From NCBI GenBank assembly GCA_001778375.1, contig MFGV01000028.1, positions 1 through 36,481 on the forward strand: DNA of 36,481 bases, in the 5' to 3' direction. The notes beneath the pieces were generated by a model. That model was not told where the DNA came from and made no database searches. It saw only the letters and a list, made by a program, of their open reading frames with translations. This document shows, piece after piece, positions 20,354 through 27,637 of this stretch; the first letter of the stretch is position 1; each line of letters starts with the position of its first letter. The DNA is from Candidatus Firestonebacteria bacterium RIFOXYD2_FULL_39_29 (GTDB lineage Bacteria > Oederibacteriota > D2-FULL-39-29). The translations under genes and the position numbers were made by a program.

Positions 20354-21691
20354 TTGAAAAAAACATTTTTCATTCATACTTTTGGATGCCAGATGAACCA
20401 GTATGATTCCGAACTGGTAGATGGGATATTAAGCAAAGAAGGGATGGTTCGCGTAGATTCCTATGAAAAGGCGGATATCTGCCTGGTGAATTCCTGCTCG
20501 GTAAGAGAACTCGCGGCGCAAAAGGCCAGAAGCGAGCTTGGGATGTTCGCGGCATACAAAAGAAAAAGCAAAAAACCTGTTTACTACGGAATTATAGGAT
20601 GTTTAGCGGAGCAGGAAGGGAAACACTTTCTTGTTAAATTTCCTGATATTGATTTCATTATAGGTCCTGCTTATGAGCGTCAGATAGGTGCCTATGCGAA
20701 AAAGGTTCTTGCCGGAGGCGGCACTGCGGTTGTAACAGGACCGGGGAAAGAAGACTGGACAGCAGATGAACTTATAAAAAGAGAAAGCAAGAAAAATGCC
20801 TGGGTAACCGTAAGCAAAGGGTGTAATTCATTCTGCTCCTATTGCGTCGTGCCATATGTAAGGGGAAGAGAAACCAGCAGGCCTTTTGGAAGTATTATTT
20901 CCGAAGTTGAAAAACTGGTCGGGGAAGGTTATAAAGAGATAAATTTACTCGGTCAGAATGTGAATACTTACGGTAAGGATTTTTCCGCAATAGAAAAAAA
21001 GGATTTTTCGGAGCTTCTTAAAGCTGTTGATGATATCAAGGGAGAGTTCTGGGTACGTTTTTGGACCTCCCATCCTAAAGATATTCCTCTAAAGCTTATA
21101 GAAACCGTTGCTTCTTCAAAAAAGATCTGTCCTCATTTTCATCTTCCCATACAAAGCGGGTCCGATCGTATCTTAAAACTAATGAACAGGAATTATACAG
21201 CGGAATCATATCTTAGGATTATCGGAGAAATAAAAAAAAGAATAAAGAATGTCTCAGTTACCAGCGATATTATAGTCGGTTTTCCGGGTGAAACGGAAGC
21301 GGACTTTAGAAGGACATTGGAGCTTTATAAAAAAGCAGCCTTTGATGTTGCCTATACATATACTTACTCGGCGCGTAAAGGAACGAAAGCATTTGATATT
21401 AAAGAGACCGTGTCTGAAACAATGAAGAACGAACGGCTTCGGGAGTTGATGAATATACAGAGAGAGATAAGTCAGGAAGTAAATGATAAATACATCGGTC
21501 AGGTCTTACCGGTTTTGCTTGACGGCACGGTAGTCGAAGATAACCTCTTGAACGGCCGGACAAATAATAATAAGCCGATATTTGTGGAAGGCAACGCCTG
21601 TAAAGGCGGGTTTGTTCGGGTAAAGATAACAGAGACAAAGCCGTTTAGTTTGAAAGGTGTTTTAGCGCAGGATGTCCGTAAAGGTCTTTAA
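20354..21691 (+). CDS. miaB: tRNA-2-methylthio-N6-isopentenyladenosine synthase (MiaB)
   Basis: Radical SAM methylthiotransferase that adds the methylthio group to isopentenyl-A37 of tRNAs reading UNN codons. At 445 aa it has the family length. The N-terminal UPF0004 domain supplies C12, C48 and C83 for the auxiliary cluster. The radical-SAM motif is C157-NSF-C161-SY-C164. The TRAM domain is at the C-terminus (about 375-440). The TTG start at 20354 is supported by AGAGGA (20341-20346). MiaB rather than RimO or MtaB is favoured by 'TFGCQMNQYDSE' and 'SCSVRELAAQK'. The miaA gene, which makes its substrate, is not in this window. The 3' end forms one arm of a long inverted repeat. Confidence 0.96.
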   Translation: MKKTFFIHTFGCQMNQYDSELVDGILSKEGMVRVDSYEKADICLVNSCSVRELAAQKARSELGMFAAYKRKSKKPVYYGIIGCLAEQEGKHFLVKFPDIDFIIGPAYERQIGAYAKKVLAGGGTAVVTGPGKEDWTADELIKRESKKNAWVTVSKGCNSFCSYCVVPYVRGRETSRPFGSIISEVEKLVGEGYKEINLLGQNVNTYGKDFSAIEKKDFSELLKAVDDIKGEFWVRFWTSHPKDIPLKLIETVASSKKICPHFHLPIQSGSDRILKLMNRNYTAESYLRIIGEIKKRIKNVSVTSDIIVGFPGETEADFRRTLELYKKAAFDVAYTYTYSARKGTKAFDIKETVSETMKNERLRELMNIQREISQEVNDKYIGQVLPVLLDGTVVEDNLLNGRTNNNKPIFVEGNACKGGFVRVKITETKPFSLKGVLAQDVRKGL

Positions 21692-21836
21692 AAGTCCATA
21701 ACAGTCCGTAAAAGTAAGATCTGGAAAATATATTTTTAAAAGAATTGAAAAAATGTTATTTCCAATATTATAAACATTTCAAGATTTTACGTTATAGACC
21801 TTTACGGACTTTTATAGACTTTTATGGACATATTTT
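21672..21836. repeat. Long imperfect inverted repeat with 10-nt periodic words
   Basis: GTCCGTAAAGGTCT (21674-21687) and AGACCTTTACGGAC (21796-21809) are a perfect 14-bp inverted repeat. Around it, GTCC-type words recur in the left arm, and in the right arm GACCTTTACG, GACTTTTATA and GACTTTTATG follow at exactly 10 nt. Inside, AAATGTT pairs with AACATTT. The left arm includes the miaB stop codon and the right arm ends just before the next ribosome binding site. Confidence 0.75.
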
Positions 21837-21849
21837 GGAGGAGGCTCAT

Positions 21850-22530
21850 TTGGAAACCATAAAGATAGACGAGAAGCTTCTGAGTTCTCCCATGACTGTC
21901 CGGGAACTATTATCTTATTATTCCTGCGTTAAGGGTAAAATCAAAGGGAGAATTAAAGAGTTTGAGGCGGTATATAAGCAAAATGACAGGAAAATATTCG
22001 AAGAACTTTGCTTCTGTATTTTTACGGCAAATGCATCAGCTAAGATGGGGTATAACTGCATAGAGCGGATAAGGCCGATACTGCTTGACGGAAGTGTGAA
22101 GAAACTGCAGGAAGCGATAAAGGGGCATTACAGGTTCTGGAAGATACGGCCCGCCTATATTGTTCACACCCGGGAATTTTTGCGGGAGAACTATGGGCTA
22201 AAGATGAAAAAACTTATAGAGTCCTTTGAGAGCCGTGAGGTCCTCAGGGATTTCTTTGCCAAGAGTAAAGGTATCAAAGGTATCGGATATAAAGAAGCCA
22301 GTCATTTTCTGCGTAACATTGGTATAAAGGGTTATGGAATAATGGATAAGCACATTTTACGTTGTCTCTTTGAATTTGGTATAATAAAGGAAGTTGAACC
22401 GGTAAATACAAAGGAAAAATACATTGCAGCCGAAGAAAAGCTTAAAGTGTTTGCAAAGAAAATAAAAGTAGATTTTGACGAATTGGATTTGCTTTTATGG
22501 TCAAGTAAGACGGGAGAAATACTCAAGTAA
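21850..22530 (+). CDS. Ogg2-type N-glycosylase/DNA lyase (8-oxoguanine repair)
   Basis: Base-excision-repair glycosylase that removes 8-oxoguanine and nicks the abasic site. It is of the Ogg2 class best known from archaea. With the TTG start at 21850 it has 226 aa, a normal family length. The helix-hairpin-helix region has 'KGIGYKEASHFLRNIG' with catalytic Lys148, then 'YGIMDKHIL' with catalytic Asp166; 'FEELCFCIFTANASAKMG' and 'LDLLLWSSKTGEILK' are family ends. The start was chosen for GGAGGAGG (21837-21844). An in-frame ATG at 21745 would add 35 residues encoded by the inverted repeat and is unlikely. The name ogg fits, but I leave the symbol open. Confidence 0.92.
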   Translation: METIKIDEKLLSSPMTVRELLSYYSCVKGKIKGRIKEFEAVYKQNDRKIFEELCFCIFTANASAKMGYNCIERIRPILLDGSVKKLQEAIKGHYRFWKIRPAYIVHTREFLRENYGLKMKKLIESFESREVLRDFFAKSKGIKGIGYKEASHFLRNIGIKGYGIMDKHILRCLFEFGIIKEVEPVNTKEKYIAAEEKLKVFAKKIKVDFDELDLLLWSSKTGEILK

Positions 22531-22660
22531 AAAGTACTAATTGCAAATGACGAATGACAATTTAAGGTAAGCGGAGAAAAAACTCCGCTAGGATTAGTTA
22601 ATTTTATATGAAAATATAGGCGAGATCTTTTTTAGCCTTTATAAAACATCGCTATTGTTA
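22531..22660. repeat. Short intergenic repeats and hairpin
   Basis: AATGAC words at 22546 and 22553 are 7 nt apart. A perfect hairpin AGCGGAG-AAAAAA-CTCCGCT lies at 22570-22589 without a T-run. No gene is present. Confidence 0.55.
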
Positions 22661-22666
22661 TATAAT
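22638..22666 (+). promoter_or_regulatory. Possible promoter of the AlbA-domain regulator
   Basis: TTTATA (22638-22643) and a perfect TATAAT (22661-22666) are 17 nt apart. If used, transcription would start near 22673, downstream of the ATG at 22665, which supports the later start codon at 22731. Confidence 0.5.
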
Positions 22667-22730
22667 GAAGAAGATAATTGACGAGGGGCTGGAATATCAT
22701 TCACGCGGGTTTCGGCAATATGGAGTTACT

Positions 22731-24074
22731 ATGGATTGGAGAGAATCGGAGATTTTAGAGTTTAAAAAGTCCACTTCAGAACTAAAAGAAGCGGTTATAT
22801 CTATTTCGGCAATATTAAACAAGCATCAGGAAGGTGAGTTATATTTCGGTATCAAAAATGACGGCGAGATAGTTGGTCAGGCGATCGGTTCGGCTACAGC
22901 AAGAGATATTTCTCAGGCAATATCAAACCATATTGAACCCAAAATATATCCTTCAATAGAGACTGTAAATATAAAAGGCAAATCCTGCATTAAAATTGAG
23001 TTTAAGGGGGAGGATATTCCCTATCACGCTTATGGTCGTGTTTACATACGGGTCGCTGATGAGGATAAGCAGTTAAGCCCCGGTGAAATAAGAAAAGTAA
23101 TACTCAAAAAAAGCAGTGATAAGTTTAAATGGGAGTTTCAGTTTTCAGAATGCTCATCAAAAGAAATAAACGCTAAAATCGTAAGAGATTACTTAAAAAG
23201 AGCAAATCTTGCGGGCAGGATAAACTTCAAGTATGATAATGCCCCGAATGTATTAAAGAAACTGGGATTGGTAAAGGGTTCTAAAATATTAAACGCGGGC
23301 CAAGTATTGTTTAGTAAAGACAATTCTTTGGAATTGCAGGTTGCTGTATTCGCCGGTGTTGATAAGATAACATTCCTTGATATTAATCAATACAAGGATA
23401 ATATTTTCAATTTGCTCAAAAGATCAGAAGAGTATCTCAAAGAGAAAATGAATTGGCGCGCAAAAACAGAAGGACTGCAAAGACAGGAGATTCCTGAAGT
23501 TCCGATTGATGCAATAAGAGAAGCCCTGGTAAATTCATTTTGCCATAGAGACTATGTGGCGCCTGAAAGCAATAAAATAGCCATATTCAAAAACCGTATT
23601 GAAATATGGAATCCCGGTGATTTTCCTGAAGGCTTTACGCCAATGGATTTTATTAAGAAAGAAGAACAATCCATATTGAGAAATCCTTTAATCGCCGATA
23701 TCTTGTATAAATCAAAAGAAATTGAAAAATGGGGCTCCGGTTTAAAAAAGATCTATAATTTATGCAAAGAAAATAACATTAAAGTTGATTTTAAAATCCT
23801 TAAAGCAGGATTTATGGTAATTTTTTACAGACAGGGGTGGGAGAGTGAAAGAGATGTTTCTGGGCAGACTACCCAGAAAACTACCCAGAAAACTACCCAG
23901 AACATTTTAGCCTTCATCAGGCAGAATCCAACGGTTACCAGGAAAGAACTTGCAGCATTAGTTGGGAATATAACGGAGGATGGGATAAAATACCATCTTG
24001 CGGCTTTGATCAAGAATAAAACAATTAAAAGAGTTGGCGGAGACAAAGGCGGACACTGGGAAGTGTTATATTGA
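22731..24074 (+). CDS. AlbA_2-domain / divergent AAA-4 putative transcriptional regulator
   Basis: Probable DNA-binding regulator of about 447 aa. The N-terminus is an AlbA_2 (Schlafen-type) domain: 'WRESEILEFKKSTSELKEAVISISAILN', 'GELYFGIKNDGEIVGQ', 'RVYIRVADEDKQLS'. The centre has the HATPase_c_4 region ('IDAIREALVNSFCHRDY', 'IEIWNPGDFPEG', 'IEKWGSGLKKI'). The C-terminus is a winged helix ('TRKELAALVGNITEDGIKYHLAALIKNKTIKRVG'). GGAG (22722-22725) lies 5 nt before this ATG, and the family usually begins M-x-W-K/R-E-S-E. A hinge holds three tandem TTQ(K/N) units encoded by 12-nt repeats. The DNA target is unknown. It is the first gene of the accessory island, and the group II intron starts 26 nt after its stop. 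Confidence 0.87.
   Translation: MDWRESEILEFKKSTSELKEAVISISAILNKHQEGELYFGIKNDGEIVGQAIGSATARDISQAISNHIEPKIYPSIETVNIKGKSCIKIEFKGEDIPYHAYGRVYIRVADEDKQLSPGEIRKVILKKSSDKFKWEFQFSECSSKEINAKIVRDYLKRANLAGRINFKYDNAPNVLKKLGLVKGSKILNAGQVLFSKDNSLELQVAVFAGVDKITFLDINQYKDNIFNLLKRSEEYLKEKMNWRAKTEGLQRQEIPEVPIDAIREALVNSFCHRDYVAPESNKIAIFKNRIEIWNPGDFPEGFTPMDFIKKEEQSILRNPLIADILYKSKEIEKWGSGLKKIYNLCKENNIKVDFKILKAGFMVIFYRQGWESERDVSGQTTQKTTQKTTQNILAFIRQNPTVTRKELAALVGNITEDGIKYHLAALIKNKTIKRVGGDKGGHWEVLY
23868..23903 (+). repeat. Three tandem 12-nt repeats inside the AlbA-domain gene
   Basis: ACTACCCAGAAA is repeated at 23868, 23880 and 23892 (the last ending in C instead of A). It encodes the TTQK-TTQK-TTQN hinge between the ATPase-like region and the winged helix. 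Copy-number change by 12 nt would keep the frame. Confidence 0.95.
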
Positions 24075-24402
24075 AACAAATTCGAAACTCGAAACTCGAG
24101 TGCGCCAAGATAAGCGTATTAGTTAAAGCTGGTAAAAATCCAGCGCAGGCAAAGGGTAGCCACCAGCCTGGAATCAAACCTTGCATTTAACGAGGCAACG
24201 AGTTAAATGAAGCCAAGGTAAGAGGGTCATCGAGTCGTAACGCAAGTAAAGGGATTGAGCCCCGAAATAGAGTGTGTCGGAGGTCGAGACGGTTCGAATC
24301 GGAGCAGACAGAAGACCTGTAGCCGAAAAGGAAAAAAAAGAGGCAAGGATACGGGAACCCGACGGGGTCTGAGACCATGACGAGATGACAAAAGGAACGG
24401 AT

Positions 24403-25917
24403 ATGAACTTGGGAGAGCCAAAACATTCTCTGGAAAAAGAGAAAGCTTCAACAAGCGATAAAAAGCGAGAAGAAGCCGAAGATGTATTGGCAGTCGGACT
24501 AACCCATAGTACCGACGAGAAGCGGGAAACCGCGGGGAGGGAAGGGGTTAGCAGTCAAGCGATGGGTTTCGAGGAAACACCTGCTGTCGTAAAAGATGGG
24601 GCATGGGTGGAAACGAAATTGAAACACATAACACAACTTGCGAAAGAAGACCAAAAGTACAGGTACACGAGACTGATGCACCTGCTAAACGAGGGACATC
24701 TTGAGCAATGCTACTGGATGCTGAAGAAGGATAGAGCCAGTGGCATAGATGGAGTAAGTGTAGAAGAGTATGGAATCAATCTAAAAGAGAACCTGAAAGA
24801 TTTGTTGGAAAGGATGAAGGCATTGCACTATTATCCGCAAGCAGTAAGGCGGGTATATATACCAAAAGGTAACGGAAAAGTAAGAGGACTCGGAATACCT
24901 GCGGTAGAAGATAAAATAGTGCAGATGGGAATGAAAAGAATCCTTGAGGCAATCTATGAGGTTGATTTTAGTGATAGTTCGTACGGATTCAGACCCAAAA
25001 GAAGTTGCCATACAGCCTTGAACGAGTTGGACAAGACAATAATGACCAGACCCATAAATGCAGTGGCAGAAGTAGATATTGAGAAATTCTTTGACACTGT
25101 AGACCATAAGTGGTTAATGGAATGCCTGAAGCAAAGGATAAGCGACACGAGGTTTCTAAGGCTTATAGTAAGATTCTTGAAGGCAGGAGTAATAGAGGAA
25201 GGGGAATATATAGCGACAGACAAAGGGACGCCGCAGGGCGGAGTATTGAGCCCAATGTTAGCAAATATATACCTTCATTATATATTAGACCTGTGGTTTG
25301 AGAAAGTAGCCAAGAAAGAATTGAAAGGATATTCGAAGCTGATAAGGTATGCAGACGACTTTGTGGTGTGTTTTGAGGAAAAAGAATCAGCCATAAGGTT
25401 CATGGAGATGCTGAAGGAAAGGTTTGCGAAATTTGGGTTGAGAATATCTGAGGAAAAGAGCCGAGTCGTGGAGTTTGGGCGGAAGAACTGGGAAGACAAC
25501 AACGGTAAAGGCGGTAAAGGAACAACTTTTGATTTTCTGGGGTTTACGCATTTTGGAGATAAAACCAGAAAAGGCAAATTCAAAGTAGGGCGTAGGACTT
25601 CGAAGAAGAAATTTGTCCAGAAGATACGAGAGATGAACGAATGGTTGAGGAATGTGCGGAATCGTTACAAACTGAAAGAATGGTGGAAAGTTCTGGTAGT
25701 AAAGATGACAGGACACTACCGATATTTTGGAATGAGCGGGAACAGCCGCATGATGTACGAATACTATCAAAGTACATCAAGACTCATATTCAAATGGATA
25801 AACAAGCGAAGTCAGAAGAAGAGTTGCACACAAGTAGAATACGCCAGCTGGTTGAAAAGAAAGTTGCCGGTGCCGAGAATTTATCACAACATCTACACAT
25901 TATATCCGTCAGTATGA
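24403..25917 (+). CDS. ltrA: Group II intron reverse transcriptase/maturase
   Basis: Intron-encoded protein that reverse-transcribes the intron and helps it splice. The reverse-transcriptase domain (about residues 70-330) has 'KDRASGIDGVS', 'RRVYIPKGNGKVRGLGIPAVEDKI', 'SYGFRPKRSCHTAL', 'DIEKFFDTVDH', 'GTPQGGVLSPMLANIYL' and the catalytic YADDF. A maturase/thumb region follows ('FKVGRRTSKKKF', 'GMSGNSRMMYEYY'). The C-terminus ends without an HNH endonuclease domain. The start is unsure: AAAGGA (24391-24396) favours the ATG at 24403, while 24385 is an in-frame alternative without a good site. The ~70 residues before the RT core are low-complexity and overlap what should be ribozyme RNA. Confidence 0.94.
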   Translation: MNLGEPKHSLEKEKASTSDKKREEAEDVLAVGLTHSTDEKRETAGREGVSSQAMGFEETPAVVKDGAWVETKLKHITQLAKEDQKYRYTRLMHLLNEGHLEQCYWMLKKDRASGIDGVSVEEYGINLKENLKDLLERMKALHYYPQAVRRVYIPKGNGKVRGLGIPAVEDKIVQMGMKRILEAIYEVDFSDSSYGFRPKRSCHTALNELDKTIMTRPINAVAEVDIEKFFDTVDHKWLMECLKQRISDTRFLRLIVRFLKAGVIEEGEYIATDKGTPQGGVLSPMLANIYLHYILDLWFEKVAKKELKGYSKLIRYADDFVVCFEEKESAIRFMEMLKERFAKFGLRISEEKSRVVEFGRKNWEDNNGKGGKGTTFDFLGFTHFGDKTRKGKFKVGRRTSKKKFVQKIREMNEWLRNVRNRYKLKEWWKVLVVKMTGHYRYFGMSGNSRMMYEYYQSTSRLIFKWINKRSQKKSCTQVEYASWLKRKLPVPRIYHNIYTLYPSV

Positions 25918-25932
25918 GGATGCTTGAATGAA

Positions 25933-25965
25933 GAGCCGTATGAGGGAAAACTTCAAGTACGGTTC
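25933..25965 (+). ncRNA. Group II intron domain V
   Basis: A 33-nt hairpin with GAGCCGTA at the base pairing with TACGGTTC. It carries the catalytic AGC triad (25934-25936) and the conserved GTACGGTTC 3' strand. It lies 15 nt after the maturase stop codon, as expected. Confidence 0.93.
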
Positions 25966-25990
25966 TGTGAGGGGATGGAGGAAGTAGGAT

Positions 25991-26119
25991 ATGGCAAATC
26001 TAAACGGGCACGAAGTTGGAAACGACGGATACAGCCAAGAAGAGCCTGTAATCACTACGATGCCGTTCTACTCGACAACAATGTTAAAAGTAATAATCAT
26101 GAAAAGCGAGGTTAATTAA
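25991..26119 (+). CDS. Possible small ORF (42 aa) in domain VI, reading into the 3' exon
   Basis: An ATG at 25991, preceded by GGAGG (25977-25981, 9-nt spacing), opens a 42-codon frame: MANLNGHEVGNDGYSQEEP, then VITTMPFYSTTM and a short tail, with stop at 26117-26119. The first 86 nt lie inside domain VI of the intron and the rest lie in the 3' exon. No membrane segment or motif is recognised. It may be only a by-product of an enlarged domain VI loop, so confidence is low. Confidence 0.25.
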   Translation: MANLNGHEVGNDGYSQEEPVITTMPFYSTTMLKVIIMKSEVN

Positions 26120-26176
26120 AAAGGCAAAGAGGGTGCTTGTACAAGTTTTAGAATGGGTAATGTTGGAGAAAAATTG

Positions 26177-26923
26177 ATGGTTGAAGAAATTTCATTCAGT
26201 ATGATAGAAAATGCGGAAGATTCGCTGGCTCATGCTATATTTCATTTGACTGGCGAGAAATCTCCTACAAAAAAAGATTTTAAAAGAGCAATATTGGACA
26301 CATCACATGCAGTGGAATTGCTTCTAAAAGAACGTCTTAAAGTAATACATCCTGCATTTGTTTTAGAAGATATTGACAAATATCCTTCTAAAGAAGCTTC
26401 TACCGTTAATGTTGATTTAGCAATAAAAAGGATTAAAAACATATGTAATTTAAGTATTCCTGAAGATATGATTAAAATAGTTAAGAGATGCCGAAAAATA
26501 AGAAATGAAATAGAGCACTATGAAGTAAATATAACAAAAAAAGAAGCGGAAGCAGTAATTGGAAATATGTTGTCGTTTATTTTTGATTTTGCTGAAAAAT
26601 ATTTGGGATTAAATCTTGAAAAGAAATTTAAAAAAGATGAAGATATGTGGGAGAAGTTGATTGTTATACATGAGTTTTGTGAGAAGCATGTTAGAATATG
26701 TGAAGGTAAATTATTTGATAAAAAGATATTGGTAGACTATTGTCCATATTGTGGTCGCCAAACATTTAATGTAGATTCTGAGAAATGTGAGTTTTGCGGA
26801 CATGAAGAAGAAATGTTTGAATGTGCGTCCTGTGGCGGAAAATACTTTATGGAAGAAAAAAGCGAAAAGAATGAAGAAGGTGATCCTTTGTGTTCAGAAT
26901 GTGCGTCCAAGCACGGCGATTAA
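26177..26923 (+). CDS. HEPN-domain protein with C-terminal zinc ribbons
   Basis: Soluble protein of 248 aa. The N-terminal ~140 residues are an all-helical HEPN-like domain with the RNase-type motif R109-NEIE-H114 (Rx4H) in 'RCRKIRNEIEHYE'. HEPN proteins with this motif are usually metal-independent RNases in toxin-antitoxin, abortive-infection or other defence systems. The C-terminus has two zinc-ribbon units, C189/C192-C204/C207 and C216/C219-C239/C242, which might bind nucleic acid. GGAG (26165-26168) supports the ATG at 26177; an upstream ATG at 26153 lacks a site. It follows the group II intron and is 37 nt from the next gene. Its base composition looks more AT-rich than the flanking housekeeping genes. 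The exact function is unknown. Confidence 0.72.
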   Translation: MVEEISFSMIENAEDSLAHAIFHLTGEKSPTKKDFKRAILDTSHAVELLLKERLKVIHPAFVLEDIDKYPSKEASTVNVDLAIKRIKNICNLSIPEDMIKIVKRCRKIRNEIEHYEVNITKKEAEAVIGNMLSFIFDFAEKYLGLNLEKKFKKDEDMWEKLIVIHEFCEKHVRICEGKLFDKKILVDYCPYCGRQTFNVDSEKCEFCGHEEEMFECASCGGKYFMEEKSEKNEEGDPLCSECASKHGD

Positions 26924-26960
26924 TTAGAAGTAGAAGCTGATCTCTTTTGCGGAGGTAAAT

Positions 26961-27497
26961 TTGTCAAAAAAAACTGAAGAATTAAGGAGCTGTATATATT
27001 TAGTTATTTCATTCTTAATTGTGGTCGTAGTGGTTCCAGGTGTTTCAATTAAGCTTTTAAATATTCTAGGCGAGCTACTGTTTGGTGGTAAAATTGGTCA
27101 ATTTGAAACAGGGCTGTATTATGGCATGGCAATTGTAGGGATGTGTTATCTGTGGTTTAAGTATATATTTAATTATAGAGAAGAAATAAAAAAAAGATGT
27201 TTTAGTAAGTTAGCAGTTAATATTATTAATAGTGACTCAACAAAGGAGATTAAAAAAAATCAATTAGTATTGGCAGAATCAATGCTTATGCTTTACGAAG
27301 ATAAAGATATAAATAAGGCGAGCCAAATTGTAGAAAGTGAGCTAAATCTAGAGCAGAAACTGAAAGAAATCTCTTCTGGACCAAGATATATTTTTAATGA
27401 AGCGCTGGAAGAGAAATATATGAAGCAAATAGGTTATTATTTATATCAAATAGAGTATAATTATGGCTTTCCATACAGGAGAGACCGAAATAAATAA
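26961..27497 (+). CDS. Small membrane protein of unknown function
   Basis: A 178-aa protein I do not recognise. Two membrane segments are evident, about residues 11-35 (IYLVISFLIVVVVVPGVSI) and 50-67 (TGLYYGMAIVGMCYLWF), followed by a charged, mainly helical cytoplasmic region of about 110 residues. The start is TTG at 26961 with GGAGG (26951-26955) 5 nt upstream. It is probably co-transcribed with the HEPN gene 37 nt before it. A soluble nuclease-like protein next to a small membrane protein is a common layout in defence systems, but nothing in this sequence proves that role. Confidence 0.65.
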   Translation: MSKKTEELRSCIYLVISFLIVVVVVPGVSIKLLNILGELLFGGKIGQFETGLYYGMAIVGMCYLWFKYIFNYREEIKKRCFSKLAVNIINSDSTKEIKKNQLVLAESMLMLYEDKDINKASQIVESELNLEQKLKEISSGPRYIFNEALEEKYMKQIGYYLYQIEYNYGFPYRRDRNK

Positions 27498-27637
27498 TGA
27501 GGTGTAGTTATTATATGAATATGAAAAAGAATTTGCGTTAAAGTTAATTTAAACTTTAAGGCAGAAATGACTTCACTCGGTGCTTTGTGGCGGATCTTCA
27601 ATAAATCACAATCGTCAATATTTTTCAAAGGAGCTCT
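27498..27637. promoter_or_regulatory. Spacer before kdsB with perfect 8-bp palindrome
   Basis: TTAAAGTT (27538-27545) and AACTTTAA (27552-27559) form a perfect inverted repeat around AATTTA. It resembles the AACTTTAGTTTAAAC palindrome at 6139-6176. No terminator or clear promoter is seen. Confidence 0.4.

Follow-up and report, generated by a model that had tools for sequence, protein, structure and literature searches.

A laterally acquired HEPN-zinc-ribbon gene of a catalogued defence-candidate family, and the small membrane gene beside it, in a Firestonebacteria genome

Does the HEPN gene on contig MFGV01000028.1 of Candidatus Firestonebacteria bacterium RIFOXYD2_FULL_39_29 form one half of a two-gene phage defence system, or does it stand alone? 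The whole stretch of DNA analysed here, hereafter the window, is 36,481 nucleotides long and is contig C28 of this 3.0 Mb genome of 93 contigs. It encodes a HEPN protein fused to zinc ribbons and, immediately downstream, a small membrane protein, which a preliminary description had presented as a candidate pair within a defence island. We find that the HEPN gene is a laterally acquired member of an already catalogued defence-candidate HEPN family, PDC-S64/DUF3644-like. This one stand-alone gene probably constitutes the core of the locus and probably encodes an abortive-infection RNase effector; the small membrane gene is not supported as its conserved partner. The features of the HEPN gene are:

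26177-26923, + strand: HEPN-zinc-ribbon protein, 248 amino acids
26501-26518, + strand: predicted RNase motif R109-N-E-I-E-H114 (Rx4H, RNEIEH)
26741-26797, + strand: zinc ribbon 1, C189-x2-C192 ... C204-x2-C207 (CPYC/CEFC), from cysteine conservation
26822-26902, + strand: zinc ribbon 2, C216-x2-C219 ... C239-x2-C242 (CASC/CSEC), from cysteine pairs

The residue numbering follows from a start at 26177, which is preceded by a Shine-Dalgarno-like GGAG; the longest open reading frame (ORF) starts at 26153 and would give a protein of 256 amino acids numbered R117/H122. No Pfam model matches the protein above cut-off. The PADLOC model PDC-S64 (PDLC05059) matches residues 5-210 with an E-value of 1e-28, and the PADLOC DUF3644 model matches at 1e-8. 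AlphaFold2 predicts a confident HEPN fold (predicted local distance difference test score, pLDDT, of 92.2), and the six best Protein Data Bank (PDB) matches found by Foldseek are HEPN proteins without exception, the majority of them RNases or toxins, with structure matches to Csm6 (5yjc), SO_3166 (5yep), AF_0298 (2hsb, TM-score by target 0.71) and HepT/HEPN-MNT toxins. A fold search of BFVD returned a single weak match, from a siphovirus. Because of the strength of the PDC-S64 match and the high-confidence fold, the HEPN assignment is not a chance result. Across 22 aligned relatives K36, E47, L48, K51, T76, R109 and H114 are invariant, so that the intact Rx4H motif described previously is present with its R/H pair in 22/22. 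Both zinc ribbons described at the outset were likewise recovered: in the first, C189, C192 and C207 are conserved in at least 90% of the aligned relatives, and the second, which the window protein shares with its closer relatives, is missing from short proteobacterial members.

The same 22 relatives define the family to which the protein belongs. PADLOC matched DUF3644 in 20 of them and the embedded candidate HEC-08 in 14 (best E-value 6.6e-16), the window protein having no HEC-08 match at E <= 0.001; three match Pfam PF12358, which the window protein does not. All 22, and the window protein, match the single-gene phage-defence candidate PDC-S64 (models PDLC05059/PDLC05058), which supports the proposed tie to phage defence, although the match of the window protein stops at position 226 of the 339 in the profile, its C-terminal zinc-ribbon end being shorter or diverged. 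PDC families are single-gene candidates obtained by guilt-by-embedding and are mostly unvalidated (PMC12988326); the literature searched yielded no paper that mentions PDC-S64. A 2013 survey of HEPN proteins (Anantharaman et al., PMC3710099) describes a family, EC042_2821, that has an active motif, overlaps DUF3644, shows fusions to winged helix-turn-helix (wHTH), restriction endonuclease (REase) and zinc-ribbon domains, and occurs in restriction-modification (R-M) operons. The window protein resembles this family in its active-type HEPN motif, its zinc ribbons and its DUF3644 match, and one relative is part of an apparent type I R-M operon, but the window protein lacks the wHTH and REase domains.

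A search of 84,980 species genomes with the HEPN protein as query found relatives at 26 loci, and tblastn placed HEPN relatives on 17 plasmids from Streptomyces, E. coli, Serratia and Enterococcus. The taxa represented include Omnitrophota, Elusimicrobiota, Aminicenantes, Pseudomonadota, Bacillota, Cyanobacteriota and others. Within its own phylum, two of 45 genomes carry the HEPN gene as judged by the family model, and in the HEPN tree the phyla are intermingled and the window protein has no supported sister. In the same-phylum relative (G024, L003:500-1819) the zinc ribbons are replaced by a C-terminal region that is longer and of a different kind; its gene lies upstream of one that, judged from sequence, resembles a C5 DNA methyltransferase. 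Another relative is common to conjugative plasmids of E. coli and Serratia (L006:5517-9014, L008:3401-6987), where it adjoins a recombinase and a DUF6530 gene, the DNA being 97-99% identical.

The HEPN gene was reported to lie between housekeeping genes, and the block that contains it does separate ogg from kdsB:

20354-21691: miaB-like gene, upstream flank, named from its sequence
21745-22530: Ogg-type glycosylase gene (ogg, PF22175), upstream flank
22531-27637, limits approximate: 5.1-kb insert in the ogg/kdsB interval
27638: kdsB, downstream flank, named from its sequence
28488: pyrG, downstream flank, named from its sequence

In order, the block comprises an AlbA-type gene, a group II intron with a reverse transcriptase, the HEPN-zinc-ribbon gene and the membrane-protein gene. 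We regard it as an insert because ogg and kdsB neighbour each other at an empty site in two sister-genus genomes, with a gap of 53 bp in G007 (34524, 34578) and 172 bp in G008 (ogg end 1803, kdsB start 1976); an intact ogg-kdsB site was not seen in the same-genus genomes examined. The block had been called AT-rich, but the GC content of 22731-27497 is 38.1%, against 38.3% for the whole window, and low GC is limited to the HEPN gene (31.6%; 22.9% at third codon positions, GC3) and the membrane gene (30.0%; GC3 25.7%). Housekeeping genes have a GC content of 38.6 +/- 3.1% and a GC3 of 35.6 +/- 4.9%, and the AlbA gene, with a GC3 of 36%, is housekeeping-like. Since GC3 varies between the genes of the block, we infer that the HEPN and membrane genes were probably acquired jointly and separately from the AlbA gene. 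A scan for promoters and terminators gave counts not above those of shuffled sequence, and RNA folding of the HEPN-membrane intergenic gap gave no signal (z 0.55).

Enrichment near defence genes had been set beforehand as a test of the defence proposal. For 25 relatives we took the large ORFs closest by, 136 proteins in all, and compared them with 136 control ORFs from arbitrarily chosen regions of, for the most part, the same genomes, at a PADLOC cut-off of E <= 1e-15. The neighbours of the relatives matched 137 PADLOC models and the controls matched 5; since the models are redundant, these counts exceed the number of genes. There is also a clear contrast in the kind of match. Those around the relatives include a type I R-M set, a type II R-M system with XhoI (XhoI being seen in Pfam also), DRT3a/3b, PD-Lambda-3_B twice and NsnA, and those among the controls are mainly mad3 and PDC-S31. 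In a Verrucomicrobiales genome (L040:183-7026) the HEPN-zinc-ribbon gene is found within an apparent type I restriction operon with HsdM-, HsdS- and HsdR-like neighbours. At two other loci (L016:2734-4484, Omnitrophota; L019:4684-6311, Elusimicrobia) it adjoins a PD-Lambda-3_B-like gene with a Hypoth_Ymh domain (E-value 7e-147 for the L016 copy). The gene orders at these loci are opposite, and the L019 ORFs overlap by 4 nt. This combination is a better candidate for a pair than the HEPN and membrane genes of the window.

We base the reading of a single-gene effector on observations of the protein (its fold, its conserved R/H pair and the cysteines of its zinc ribbons) and of the gene's distribution and setting (a patchy spread over many phyla, defence genes enriched around relatives, and an empty site in sister genomes). 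On established HEPN biology, the protein would cut RNA as a homodimer and independently of metal, with R109 and H114 lying in the cleft of the dimer, and would stay inactive until engaged by a cue from the phage. The cue would probably be sensed through the zinc ribbons or the intervening segment; that recognition falls to the zinc ribbons is a guess. Once triggered, the RNase may cleave host and phage RNA, giving a growth stop and abortive infection by analogy with Tha, a single-gene, Abi-like HEPN RNase of a Staphylococcus aureus prophage that has an Rx4H motif (R265NSIMH270) and is triggered by phage tail proteins (PMC11087260). The window protein shares with Tha the single-gene organisation and the same kind of motif; however, as far as a comparison by description goes, the HEPN domain of Tha is C-terminal and zinc ribbons are not mentioned. 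The AlbA gene and the intron would be independent insertions.

Some points weigh against this reading. The Foldseek E-values are weak (the best being 0.011), PADLOC finds no other credible defence gene among the 29 other genes of the window, and in the papers searched we found no experimental test of an exact family member. Matches of other window genes to mad3 and CARF-LolE-TM are most likely false positives. On balance, our reading gives a small candidate phylum a member of a defence-candidate HEPN RNase family, and the case-control neighbourhood test adds independent support for the family's link to defence. The result would carry greater weight if the zinc ribbons were a phage sensor, the family being widespread and single-gene. 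Natural relatives (the WP_086217972 family) occur in E. coli.

The best of the alternatives, although an unlikely one, is a true two-gene system in which the downstream protein serves the HEPN RNase as anchor, inhibitor or trigger:

26961-27497, + strand: small membrane protein, 178 amino acids (ORF and hydropathy)

The layout invites this interpretation. The membrane ORF has a TTG start after GGAGG, a good Shine-Dalgarno sequence, and begins 37 nt past the HEPN stop codon on the same strand, and the unusually low GC3 of both genes suggests joint acquisition. A HEPN-TM defence system of phage-inducible chromosomal islands (PICIs) (Fillol-Salom et al., 2022), as it is described where cited (PMC11087260; PMC12948488), also has a HEPN gene adjoining a membrane-protein gene; the likeness is one of layout, and the HEPN/membrane pairing is an idea already described and not new. 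The ORF and the gap are thus as first described. Of the two membrane passes claimed, one corresponds to a strong hydrophobic segment (residues 12-30), and the second (approximately residues 50-68) is weaker and under the cut-off, so that a two-pass protein is plausible. Single-sequence structure prediction was uninformative (pLDDT 47).

However, co-occurrence of the two genes is not conserved. No homologue of the membrane protein was found in 45 same-phylum genomes, in plasmids or phages, in IMG/VR by a close-relative search, or in the remaining 26 genomes with a HEPN relative; a single match with an E-value of 0.08 was dismissed as noise. Furthermore, no HEPN relative has a comparable membrane gene directly downstream, the genes at that position being variable and often convergent or distant. 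Small proteins with one to three hydrophobic segments are as frequent among control ORFs as among the relatives' neighbours (19/136 in each). Lack of conservation had been named beforehand as a ground for rejecting the proposal; the pair is therefore not borne out, and most probably the membrane gene is a passenger or an accessory particular to this lineage.

A further argument for a two-gene system comes from E. coli, where a HEPN relative is accompanied by a convergent gene for a 167-amino-acid protein with two transmembrane (TM) segments in 24 of 5426 genomes. The HEPN-zinc-ribbon and two-TM genes travel in a 2.05-kb cassette (L049:11897-13947 and L050:11897-13947, 99.6% identical), one copy of which lies in the cargo site of a prophage and the other in a tRNA-Ser island. 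The two-TM gene is nevertheless unrelated in sequence to the membrane gene of the window and is present in 68 genomes, against the 24 with the HEPN gene. At the sites inspected the HEPN gene is missing; the two-TM gene adjoins a NERD gene, and it is also found on an IncI plasmid, within a different prophage and in phage Ayreon. An obligate partnership was rejected on account of these occurrences, and because the gene is unrelated to that of the window and is found without the HEPN gene, it is at most an optional associate. We give little credence to the notion that the orphan two-pass protein of the window evolves fast, is specific to its lineage and acts as a sensor or anchor for the RNase, and that HEPN-zinc-ribbon RNases have taken up small, mutually unrelated two-TM partners time and again, in this genome and separately in the prophage cassettes of E. 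coli; if true, it would point to a modular, membrane-coupled form of RNase defence.

It is also improbable that the HEPN protein is an ordinary accessory gene product that serves in RNA processing or regulation outside defence, or that is inactive. Such a role would fit a locus that has no other defence gene, and several relatives are solitary among housekeeping genes (e.g. L027 and L028). It accords poorly with the strict conservation of the catalytic pair, with the defence-gene enrichment around relatives and with their occurrence in prophage cargo, on plasmids and in R-M operons. About as improbable is a module of toxin-antitoxin type that serves to maintain the element or acts under stress and not against phages, its antitoxin being either the membrane protein or some factor not seen, since, despite the HEPN-MNT toxins among the nearest structures and the two tightly spaced genes on a mobile insert, neither a minimal nucleotidyltransferase (MNT) gene nor another known antitoxin lies beside the HEPN gene, and the relatives are mostly solo genes, which suits an obligate antitoxin badly.

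The remainder of the insert consists of the following:

22665-24074, + strand: regulator-like protein, 469 amino acids, with SLFN_AlbA_2, HATPase_c_4 and C-terminal wHTH domains (Pfam)
24100-26076, + strand: group II intron (Rfam RF02005 at 24135-24377, RF00029 at 25931-26076), with ends GTGCG...AC read from the sequence
24385-25917, + strand: intron-encoded reverse transcriptase (RVT_1), 510 amino acids (PF00078, E-value 1.5e-40)

Both the AlbA-type regulator and the mobile intron had been recognised in the preliminary description, and both identifications stand. The former is supported by matches to SLFN_AlbA_2 (PF04326, E-value 9e-20) and HATPase_c_4 (PF13749, 4e-18), the wHTH match being weak; its argonaute-associated PADLOC matches were taken as shared-domain matches. 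The genome encodes eight PF04326 proteins, this one included, and with so many paralogues and a GC3 unlike that of the HEPN gene, a role as a system-specific regulator was rejected. The locus as a whole does not qualify as a defence island, the HEPN gene being the one credible defence match in the window, the AlbA protein one of eight and the intron multicopy. The intron is inserted in a AATTCGAAACTCGAAACTCGA repeat directly past the AlbA stop codon. It is an independent multicopy mobile element, since there are several further partial copies in the genome; copies elsewhere share its 3' end base. Many of the partial copies are located at contig ends, which suggests that the intron copies interrupt the assembly.

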